Shown piece after piece: positions 54,693 through 57,128 of a stretch of 64,000 nt of DNA. The notes beneath the pieces are model-generated. The model had not been told where the DNA came from and ran no database searches. It saw only the letters and a list, made by a program, of their open reading frames with translations. The DNA is taken from contig NZ_CP150660.1 of assembly GCF_038023995.1 (NCBI RefSeq), positions 246,501-310,500 on the forward strand, given 5' to 3'. The translations under genes and the position numbers were made by a program. This DNA comes from Polaribacter atrinae. GTDB taxonomy: Bacteria; Bacteroidota; Bacteroidia; Flavobacteriales; Flavobacteriaceae. Positions within the stretch are counted from its first letter, which is position 1. Each line of letters opens with the position of its first letter.

Positions 54693-54858
54693 AGGAAGAT
54701 AAAAAAGACTTCTTCGTAAAAACGATATAAAAACCTTCAATCTCTGTAATAGTTGCAGTTAAGTTGGAGGTTTTTGTTTGTGTGATTGTTGTTTTTGTAA
54801 AACGAGAAGTTTGTTTTTAAAGAGTGTTATTTAAATGTTGATAAACAGTTGTTTAATA
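54693..54858. other. spacer between permease gene and the two-gene unit
   Basis: Contains the permease terminator. No coding frame. Confidence 0.6.
54729..54776 (+). terminator. permease terminator
   Basis: aaaaaccttcaa (54729-54740) pairs with ttggaggttttt (54764-54775, one G-U) around a 23-base loop, followed by a T-rich tail. Confidence 0.7.
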
Positions 54859-54890
54859 ATTGATTTTTTATGGTTAAAAAACTAACTTTG
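54859..54890 (+). promoter_or_regulatory. promoter of the pentapeptide/nucleotidyltransferase unit
   Basis: TTG (54860-54862) and TAACTTTG (54883-54890) are separated by 20 bases, a close fit to the Bacteroidota -33/-7 promoter. The start of transcription would be near 54897, giving a leader of about 65 bases. Confidence 0.6.
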
Positions 54891-54895
54891 CTAAT

Positions 54896-54932
54896 GACGA
54901 TTATAAGTCATTTAACCGATATTATAATAGTC
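54896..54932 (+). promoter_or_regulatory. dyad at the predicted transcription start
   Basis: gacgattataa (54896-54906) and ttataatagtc (54922-54932) are inverted repeats matching at 10 of 11 positions, positioned right at the likely +1. It could be a repressor operator or a 5' hairpin. Confidence 0.4.
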
Positions 54933-54961
54933 TTAAGTTATATTGTATTTAAGGAAAATCA

Positions 54962-55903
54962 ATGAATAAAATAATAAAACAATTTTGGAATTTAGATGAA
55001 AATCAATTTAATCGAAAAATTGTATCTCAAGAAGAATTTTATACTGCCATGAAAAGTGCAGATGATTTTAGGGATTTTGTTTATTGGCCAGAAGAGTTAA
55101 TCCCTGAAAAAAAGGATGAATACAAAATAGAAAACAAAACTTTCACTAATTGCAGTTTTGCATTTACAACATTTGAGAATTTAACTTTTCAAAACTGCAA
55201 ATTCAATAACTGTAAATTTAATCATGCTAAAATATTGAGTTGCAGATTTCATGATTGTACTTTTGAATATGTGAATATGTTTAAAGTGACTGTCAAAACA
55301 ACCTATTTGGAACCAAACTCATTTAGAAATATTATCCCAAGTATTAGAGCTTTATCAGGAAGTTTTAAAAACGCAAATATGTGTGTAACTTTCTTTCAGG
55401 AAGTACTTGACAATTCAAAAGATGAAGGCCAGCCTGAACACACGAAAAATGCAGATTATCATTTCAAAAAATGGAAAGGTTTAAACTATTTTCAAAAAAG
55501 ATTTTTTCCAGAAAAAGATAGTAGACGAACTTCAAATTGGATGTTTGTGAAGAAGTTTTTCCCAAACTTAAGTCTATATTTTTTAACAGGTTATGGATAT
55601 AGAATACTAAATTTCCTAGTTGTATTTATACTAGGTTTTAGCTTTTTCTCTTATAAAAATTATTTAAACTGGACGGAATATGGTTTAGTCCAAAAAGATT
55701 TAGCAATAGATTCTTTTAACCCGTTAGAACCTAATTTGACATCCACTCTCTATTATACTTTGGATTGTACGACAAAACTTGTCGATTCTCAGTTTCAAGC
55801 ATGTACAGACTATGGAATGGGGTGGCTAGCCGCTCAAAGTTTGTTTGGCTTCTTTCTATTAAGTGCTTTATTAACAATAATCATAAACAAATTTGTACGA
55901 TGA
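54962..55903 (+). CDS. pentapeptide-repeat protein with channel-like two-helix domain
   Basis: A 313-residue protein. Residues about 55-115 form a short pentapeptide-repeat section (FTNCSFAFTTFENLTFQNC, CKFNNCKFNHAK). A linker with a Trp/Phe-rich amphipathic stretch follows. The C-terminus has one membrane helix (about 217-235, FLVVFILGFSFFSY), a pore-loop-like segment (STLYYTLDCTTKLVD, where channel relatives have TT-x-G-x-G-D), and a final helix (about 292-310, SLFGFFLLSALLTIIINKF). The layout resembles ion_trans_2 channels with pentapeptide sensors, but the filter is degenerate. Its stop overlaps the next start in ATGA. Confidence 0.75.
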   Translation: MNKIIKQFWNLDENQFNRKIVSQEEFYTAMKSADDFRDFVYWPEELIPEKKDEYKIENKTFTNCSFAFTTFENLTFQNCKFNNCKFNHAKILSCRFHDCTFEYVNMFKVTVKTTYLEPNSFRNIIPSIRALSGSFKNANMCVTFFQEVLDNSKDEGQPEHTKNADYHFKKWKGLNYFQKRFFPEKDSRRTSNWMFVKKFFPNLSLYFLTGYGYRILNFLVVFILGFSFFSYKNYLNWTEYGLVQKDLAIDSFNPLEPNLTSTLYYTLDCTTKLVDSQFQACTDYGMGWLAAQSLFGFFLLSALLTIIINKFVR

Positions 55904-56787
55904 AAAATTATAGCGTTGCAATATTCGGTAGCTCATTAAGAGCCGATTTTGATAAGTATAGCGATAGAGATTTATTAATCGTAGCTGATGACTTCGATAC
56001 TTTAGATAAATTAAAAGTAGAATATTCTAAAGATGATTGGTCGATTTCTTATTACACATACTCAAAGCTTAAATATTTATCAAAAAGCGGTAGCTTATTT
56101 ATTAAACATTTACAAAATGAGTCAAAAATATTTATTGATAAAACAGGTAGATTAGACAAAATTATTTCTGATTTCAAACCAAAGAACAATTACAAGAAAG
56201 ATATTCAAGATTGCGAAAACTATTTTGATATTATAAAAACAATTCCAAAAACGAACTTAGGTTTTGCTTGGTTCTGTGATAGTCTTTACGTCGGGTTGAG
56301 AAATTATTTAGTCTTTAAAAATGCAGAAAATGAAATTTTTGAATTTTCATATATAAAACTTTTAGAAAGGCTGAAAGAACAAAGAAAAATAAATCAGTCT
56401 GATGTTGAAATCTTGAAAGAATTAAGAGTTGTAAAAAGAAACTACAGAGACGAAATTCTTGACGAACTACCTTCTTTAGGTTTTATTCAAAAAGTAATAC
56501 CAATTCTAAATGCTATTGGATTATTAGAAACAGTAAATATTGTTGATTCTTTAACATTTCAGAATGTTGTGGAAAAATCAATTATAAGAAAAAAATTCAA
56601 TCCATACCAAAGGTTGAGATTAGTAGAAGGATATTATTGCTCTCAAGAATTAAATATTCCTAAGTTGAAAAAAATAATTAGTAATCCGCAATTTTATGCT
56701 TCAAAAATGAAAGATAATAAACTTACTATGAGTTTAATAACAAGTATGAAAAAACTCCACATAACTAAGGCTATAGCTAATGCCTAG
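55900..56787 (+). CDS. minimal nucleotidyltransferase with C-terminal helical (HEPN-like) domain
   Basis: A 295-residue protein starting at ATG 55900, overlapping the upstream stop by four bases. The Pol-beta-type nucleotidyltransferase motif is FGSSLRADFDKYSDRDLLIV (about 8-27): GS followed by the Asp-x-Asp pair. A typical later segment is SGSLFIKHLQNESKIF. Residues about 95-200 are helical, with FAWFCDSLYVGLRNYLVF and LRVVKRNYRDE, reminiscent of HEPN partners but lacking the catalytic His. It might modify RNA, protein or nucleotides; coupling to a membrane protein is distinctive. Confidence 0.78.
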   Translation: MKNYSVAIFGSSLRADFDKYSDRDLLIVADDFDTLDKLKVEYSKDDWSISYYTYSKLKYLSKSGSLFIKHLQNESKIFIDKTGRLDKIISDFKPKNNYKKDIQDCENYFDIIKTIPKTNLGFAWFCDSLYVGLRNYLVFKNAENEIFEFSYIKLLERLKEQRKINQSDVEILKELRVVKRNYRDEILDELPSLGFIQKVIPILNAIGLLETVNIVDSLTFQNVVEKSIIRKKFNPYQRLRLVEGYYCSQELNIPKLKKIISNPQFYASKMKDNKLTMSLITSMKKLHITKAIANA

Positions 56788-56946
56788 CTAGTTGTTTATA
56801 AGTGTTTATGAAGTTTACTTAAATTTTTAAGTTTGGTTTATAAAGATAAAATCAAAAAATTTTATAGCTAGGGATTATTTGAAAGTTAGGTACTTTTAAT
56901 AACCATTCTAACCATAGCCGAGACATTAGAAAAAAACAAGAAAAAG

Positions 56947-56991
56947 CCTTCAATAAATAGAATAAGATTCAGTTTATTGAAGGTGTTTTTT
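56947..56991 (+). terminator. terminator of the two-gene unit
   Basis: ccttcaataaa (56947-56957) pairs with tttattgaagg (56973-56983), followed by tgttttttt. Confidence 0.8.
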
Positions 56992-57043
56992 GTATAATTA
57001 AGCGGAGAGCCTTTACTTTCTAAACATTCTCAAGCAAACAAGT

Positions 57044-57128
57044 CTAGCCCTGATTGAAGCAATTGTTTGAGCTCTTTTTATTCTTTTTTAGAATAAAAAA
57101 GCGAGTGCGGAAAGCAGGAAATAGCTTC
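57044..57128. repeat. conserved flavobacterial intergenic element
   Basis: Begins ctagccctgattgaagc and ends gcggaaagcaggaaatagct. In the middle is a hairpin (ctttttattc 57074-57083, gaataaaaaag 57091-57101). I recognise these end sequences from many Flavobacterium-group intergenic regions, usually just after genes. Here it abuts the 3' end of the minus-strand NTP-transferase gene and may be its terminator. Confidence 0.6.

Follow-up and report, generated by a model that had tools for sequence, protein, structure and literature searches.

A divergent Hailong-like gene pair with mosaic inheritance in Polaribacter atrinae

In the stretch of Polaribacter atrinae DNA analysed here (64,000 nucleotides, hereafter the window), a gene for a pentapeptide membrane protein is directly followed by a gene for a small nucleotidyltransferase, and the question raised by this locus is whether the enzyme controls the membrane protein and whether the two act together in defence. 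As argued below, we consider it highly probable that the two genes form a phage-defence system of the Hailong type, though a divergent one, in which a signal made by the HalB-like enzyme would shut a HalA-like channel until a phage removes that signal. The two genes and the putative signals around them lie in the window as follows.

54722..54784, + strand: terminator-like hairpin 3' of the permease gene (fold -22.4 kcal/mol, z -6.6).
54860..54890, + strand: promoter-like TTG-N20-TAACTTTG (pattern match, weak evidence).
54962..55903, + strand: halA-like gene, 313 aa, pentapeptide part plus predicted two-helix membrane domain (NF051894, Foldseek 9nyi).
55900..56787, + strand: halB-like gene, 295 aa, nucleotidyltransferase (NF051895 E 2e-19; Foldseek HalB matches).
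56936..56994, + strand: terminator-like hairpin 3' of the pair (fold -22.6 kcal/mol, z -8.5).

The 295 residues of the second product are counted from an internal ATG, the list of open reading frames giving a longer reading with a TTG start. The first-pass annotation of this DNA had described an ATGA start/stop overlap between both genes, which we found at 55900-55903, as well as terminators on both sides of the pair and a near-consensus promoter. Stable terminator-like hairpins do fold on both sides, and none of 200 shuffles was as stable as the hairpin at 54722-54784 and none of 200 as that at 56936-56994; a simple terminator scan listed neither of them. The left-hand hairpin stretch is common to two relatives (aligned in genomes G034 and G039). 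The promoter did not hold up. The TTG-N20-TAACTTTG pattern at 54860, which we take to be the Bacteroidota-type promoter consensus, is no better than chance: it was present in 8% of 2000 shuffles of the 269-base intergenic stretch and showed no excess over the whole window (16 found versus a mean of 19 in 40 shuffles). The second box of this site is altered in G034 and G039, and no sigma-70-type site was found in the intergenic stretch 54693-54961.

The product of the second gene is homologous to HalB, the nucleotidyltransferase of Hailong. Its annotation as a Pol-beta-type nucleotidyltransferase was confirmed by a match to PF01909 above the Pfam cut-off (22.2 versus 21 bits), and HalB (NF051895) was its sole NCBIfam match at E<=1, at a score that misses the equivalog cut-off (70 versus 190 bits). 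By sequence alone the solved HalB matched this protein with E 0.0012, and with E 2e-21 when a seven-row profile was used that already contained a canonical HalB (L006). Among 14 control genomes, 5 also gave weak matches to the HalB profile. AlphaFold2 models of both proteins of the pair were built with four sequences each as input. The HalB-like model reached a pLDDT of 73 and a pTM of 0.74, with values below 50 for residues 11-23 (the active-site loop) and 251-295 (the end), and Foldseek returned 13 PDB matches at E<=0.001, every one of them a HalB chain (TM-score 0.54-0.67, normalised to the target). Two further features were located within the gene.

55963..55971, + strand: catalytic Asp pair D22/D24 (SDRDLL), from the alignment to 9dbj and 9dbi.
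56449..56784, + strand: C-terminal part with the conserved block KFNPYQRLRLVEGYYCSQ, residues 184-295, from the comparison of four HalB-like proteins.

The catalytic residues are conserved. D22 and D24 are the equivalents of HalB D21 and D23, which are mutated in PDB entry 9dbi (D21A/D23A), and the Asp pair and a GS motif are invariant in all eight HalB-like proteins aligned. R176 was considered as the counterpart of HalB R164 (mutated in 9dbj) and dropped, the canonical HalB L006 having no Arg there in the alignments used. At its other end the protein departs from HalB: the four long HalB-like proteins that we compared (295-306 aa, versus 211 positions of the HalB model) carry a conserved C-terminal extension, with residues 184-295 being 66-97% identical among them. 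Compared alone with the PDB, this C-terminal part gave nothing convincing (best E 0.98), and an extended HalB was not described in the literature searched, outside of which the primary Hailong paper lies.

The product of the first gene, a putative channel protein, has the following parts.

55127..55312, + strand: pentapeptide part, residues 56-117 (Pfam and NCBIfam matches, strands in the model).
55604..55669, + strand: predicted membrane helix 1, residues 215-236 (AlphaFold2 model).
55736..55774, + strand: predicted pore helix, residues 259-271, with TTKLVDSQFQ at its end (AlphaFold2 model).
55808..55894, + strand: predicted membrane helix 2, residues 283-311 (AlphaFold2 model).

A pentapeptide section coupled to a two-helix membrane domain was what the first reading of this gene had claimed, and both parts were recovered, the membrane domain as a prediction: the protein matched PF13599 with E 4e-6 (27.2 bits, below the cut-off of 38), and the model places two predicted helices around a short one. 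By hydropathy, helix 2 was marked in all four HalA-like proteins compared, and helix 1 in those of the window and Marivirga only and not in those of Tenacibaculum and Tamlana. The best NCBIfam match was HalA (NF051894, E 8e-11), confined to the pentapeptide stretch and far below the equivalog cut-off (41.7 versus 250 bits). This profile is unspecific, as it matched in 5 of the 14 control genomes and in a further pentapeptide gene of the window's genome (E 1.2e-7), and by sequence other pentapeptide proteins outscore the solved HalA (9nyi) as matches of the HalA-like protein. The AlphaFold2 model (mean pLDDT 61, pTM 0.41) had as its first Foldseek match 9nyi, the complex of HalA with oligodeoxyadenylate, with E 2.3e-9, a probability of 1.00 and 337 columns, at a TM-score of only 0.3; the remaining two fold matches at E<=0.001 were SV2A and a pentapeptide protein. 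The predicted order of helix, pore helix and helix is shared with two-helix potassium channels such as Kir2.2, which are found among weak fold matches (Kir2.2, Kv3.1 and KCNQ1 chains, E 0.01-0.03; 3spi, E 0.017, probability 1.00). Potassium channels carry a TVGYG-type filter motif, whereas the HalA-like protein lacks such a filter and has TTKLVDSQFQ in its place.

The Hailong defence system was reportedly presented by Tan et al. in Nature in 2025. It is cited as a published 2025 system in passages of PMC12657230, PMC12265719 and PMC13275509, so that calling a pair of this kind undescribed was too strong. According to the passages of PMC12657230 and PMC12265719, single-stranded DNA oligomers (oligodeoxyadenylate) suppress the Hailong effector until they are removed by a phage exonuclease, and a passage of PMC13275509 has the HalA ion channel blocked by poly-dA adducts of HalB. 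Immune systems in which a nucleotide signal suppresses the effector rather than activating it are few among those known; Hailong belongs to them, and a passage of PMC12265719 names three. In Hailong as in the window, a pentapeptide membrane gene adjoins a Pol-beta nucleotidyltransferase gene, and the top match of either window protein, by NCBIfam as well as by fold, is a Hailong protein (PDB 9nyi, 9dbh, 9dbi and 9dbj). Since the scores of both stay well under the curated cut-offs and the C-terminal part of the HalB-like protein is conserved, we filed the pair, from its sequences, as a Hailong-like variant and not as a Hailong equivalog.

For the nature of the signal, the sign of the control (inhibitory), the trigger and the anti-phage effect we infer the following. 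The HalB-like nucleotidyltransferase would produce a nucleotide signal all the time; by analogy with Hailong this is probably oligodeoxyadenylate, short and single-stranded. As long as the signal is present, the HalA-like pentapeptide channel would stay closed in the membrane. An infecting phage would remove the signal, for example by exonucleases, upon which the channel would open and the cell would be stopped. The earlier proposal of an enzyme that controls a membrane effector in defence thus stands as far as the profile and fold matches to Hailong and a genomic slot of defence type (see below) carry it; its novelty does not.

In order to follow the spread of the pair, genome contigs were scanned once for the long form of HalB with two short peptide patterns, a basis on which relatives can be missed. 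Among 78 pattern stretches three relatives were confirmed, in Tenacibaculum pelagium, Marivirga arenosa and Tamlana fucoidanivorans; Tenacibaculum and Tamlana belong to the Flavobacteriaceae and Marivirga to a different class, Cytophagia. In all four loci (the window, L036, L037 and L038) halA and halB adjoin with the ATGA overlap, and the surrounding open reading frames, compared by eye, differ among the four. Within the family of the window, 5 of 397 genomes matched the HalB-like protein at E<=0.001, two of them over its full length (G000 and G264; by ORF translations the pair of G264 is that of the Tamlana record). The HalA profile matched at E<=1e-4 in 101 of the 397, and among the best candidates of each genome (at most five, so that a weaker HalA in a pentapeptide-rich genome could be missed) only G000 and G264 had a full-length protein. 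Full-length HalA-like and full-length long HalB-like proteins, with the same restriction on HalA candidates, thus occur in the same two of the 397 genomes, and the two genes are paired in every full-length case found; they are not homologues usually found apart. Five other HalA-profile matches with longer frames were inspected by eye and set aside, none having the two-helix channel domain beside a nucleotidyltransferase.

Nor does the pair look like a core locus of its relatives, as no HalB-like gene was matched in 57 genomes of the same genus, 13 of which are less than 90% complete. In a class sample of 395 genomes three matched the HalB-like protein, with full length in the window's own genome only. 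A phylum-wide search with the HalB profile matched 66 of 395 genomes at E<=0.001, of which only G604 was above the cut-off; the others were not counted as HalB, because the profile had also matched in 5 of 14 control genomes, and most of them span 20-45 positions of a general motif. No relative was confirmed in viral contigs, either by a scan with the HalB-like protein or by one with a two-row alignment (4 and 106 pattern stretches), and a tblastn search of phage and plasmid records with the HalB-like protein returned nothing at E 1e-5, so that travel on phages or plasmids is not supported in those collections. Partial HalB matches with stops were seen in G425 and G342. A stretch in G238 (C1:3341358-3341666) matches HalA in its membrane part only (E 4.7e-5); the frame is broken by five stops, and the stretch is possibly a decayed copy or a chance match.

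Other Hailong-like arrangements were seen. In three genomes (G340, G778 and G870) a HalA-like and a HalB-like gene are followed by a third, overlapping open reading frame.

L003:497-2398, L008:540-2267 and L075:658-2425: three-gene Hailong-like loci.

Pentapeptide-membrane and HalB-like genes adjoin in these loci as in the window, whereas their HalB is short (211-213 aa, without the long extension) and a gene of 96-100 aa is added. The third open reading frames align with one another and had no convincing NCBIfam match. Upstream of the L003 set lies an open reading frame that resembles a type I restriction specificity subunit. The HalB of G604 mentioned above is encoded at L079:6582-7442, and among the open reading frames of at least 100 aa on its 10,088-base contig no HalA-like one was seen.

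The inheritance of the pair is horizontal and mosaic. Between HalA-like proteins identity was 75% for window and Marivirga and 38-44% for the five remaining pairs, and between HalB-like proteins it was 91% for Marivirga and Tamlana, 80% for window and Tenacibaculum and 74-78% for the four remaining pairs. Accordingly, the best HalA tree groups the window with Marivirga, whereas the best HalB tree groups the window with Tenacibaculum and Marivirga with Tamlana, and with these four taxa each tree was rejected by the data of the other (AU p 2e-18 and 5e-8). This strong conflict indicates that the two halves were reshuffled between species. At the DNA level, halB of Marivirga and that of Tamlana are 91-98% identical from about codon 60 on and 73-86% in the windows before, a jump of which recombination inside halB is the simplest reading; the halA genes of the same two genomes are 45-67% identical. 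A 16-base sequence upstream of halA is common to Marivirga (L037) and Tamlana (L038). As a cassette signal or multi-copy repeat it was rejected, being present in a single copy in both genomes and absent from the other four searched; its reversed control occurred once in G039.

The mosaic bears on the strongest of the rival explanations, a system like the type VII toxin-antitoxin MntA/HepT, in which the nucleotidyltransferase would silence the channel by attaching nucleotides to it directly and no diffusible or bound oligonucleotide would be involved. MntA attaches nucleotides to a HEPN toxin, and both systems set a small nucleotidyltransferase beside a protein that it may silence; furthermore, the HalB-like proteins of the three-gene loci match MntA weakly (E 5.6e-4 and E 9.5e-4, the third E 0.0023). 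The window pair, however, has a pentapeptide membrane protein instead of a HEPN partner and its enzyme has no MntA match at E<=1, where HalB stands alone, and HEPN and MNT structures appear among the fold matches of its model only at E 2.2 or worse. HalB-like proteins with 74-91% identity are paired with HalA-like proteins of which most share only about 40%, a contrast more in keeping with a common signal than with one specific substrate protein. We therefore regard direct attachment as improbable, and a single type of enzyme seems to work with channels that differ widely, as would be expected of a common signal more than of a close fit between two proteins.

The sign of the control cannot be read from sequence alone, and nucleotide-gated channel effectors exist. 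An activating, CBASS-like system, in which the phage would switch the enzyme on and its product would open the channel, could also draw on weak PADLOC matches of the HalB-like protein to the candidate systems PDC-S09 and PDC-M05A (best E 6.7e-4). The PDC-S09 matches, however, span about 30 residues of a general motif, no CBASS-named family was found among the PADLOC and NCBIfam matches, by which test the window protein is no CD-NTase synthase, and both closest structures are Hailong proteins, in which, going by the passages cited above, the product inhibits. We hold such activation to be very improbable and retain the Hailong-type reading, with a channel that the signal would keep shut.

We also analysed the place of the pair in the genome, which is a slot shared with defence-type genes.

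54890..57011, no strand: cargo segment, where homology to two same-genus relatives stops and then resumes.
57042..57125, + strand: Flavo-1 RNA (RF01705) at the right slot edge (52.4 bits, gathering 42).

In the junction alignment homology to G034 and G039 ends at about 54889 and returns at about 57012-57035, and blastn against the two same-genus relatives placed the left ends at 54888 and 54894 and the right starts at 57012 and 57092. The slot is flanked in the window, G034 and G039 by the same permease and NTP-transferase genes, and the Flavo-1 RNA lies at the same right-edge position in both relatives (L069 and L070). Among 58 genomes of the genus the NTP-transferase was found at 68% identity or more in 8 and the permease at E<=1e-100 in 15, and only the window's genome, G034 and G039 were on both lists; seven other NTP-transferase regions exist, and in two (G034 and G039) of the five examined the permease lay nearby. 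In G034 the slot is occupied by a single open reading frame (1272 aa; L070:4936-8754) that carries an nSTAND3 domain (PF20720, 40.6 versus 27.2 bits). That of G039 holds an sce7726/sce7725/HEPN-RES set that reads away from the same left edge (L069:8875-11797) and is a possible defence set; its sce7726 also matches PADLOC cll with E 4e-18. By eye, G039 also has a MarC-type gene left of the edge and, in the slot, genes for a catalase, an OxyR-type regulator and an ankyrin protein (L069:5564-8702). The last three were also seen together, by eye, on the HalB contig of G604 (L079:271-3550), a grouping that may be coincidence.

Ten neighbours of the pair between 43 and 62 kb were scanned with PADLOC, which matched three of them: an 814-aa protein (labelled Cas3b and PDC-M16A), Lon (BrxL and others) and a 221-aa methyltransferase-like protein (mad2). 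These were taken as general ATPase, protease and methyltransferase matches, and clear defence genes were absent from the ten, so that a defence island is not supported. A stress or signalling pair outside defence, with a role unrelated to Hailong, would suit these neighbours and the empty phage and plasmid records, and is nevertheless extremely improbable given the patchy spread over two classes and the defence-type genes in the slot of the two relatives.

Collectively, the kind of system is known, and this variant of it is divergent, with its two halves mixed between species. A branch that lies under current detection cut-offs suggests that effector-suppressing nucleotide systems are undercounted, and nature itself provides a test of whether a signal or a protein contact links the two, in that channel halves are exchanged while the enzyme behind them is conserved. 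The HalB extension is a clear target for finding further control of the signal. As a tentative possibility, the long forms may make up a distinct Hailong-like branch in which the extra conserved domain of HalB alters what the signal is, how it is attached or what triggers it. In such a branch the two halves would be exchanged between species by recombination, so that one type of enzyme could serve very different channels through the signal that they share.
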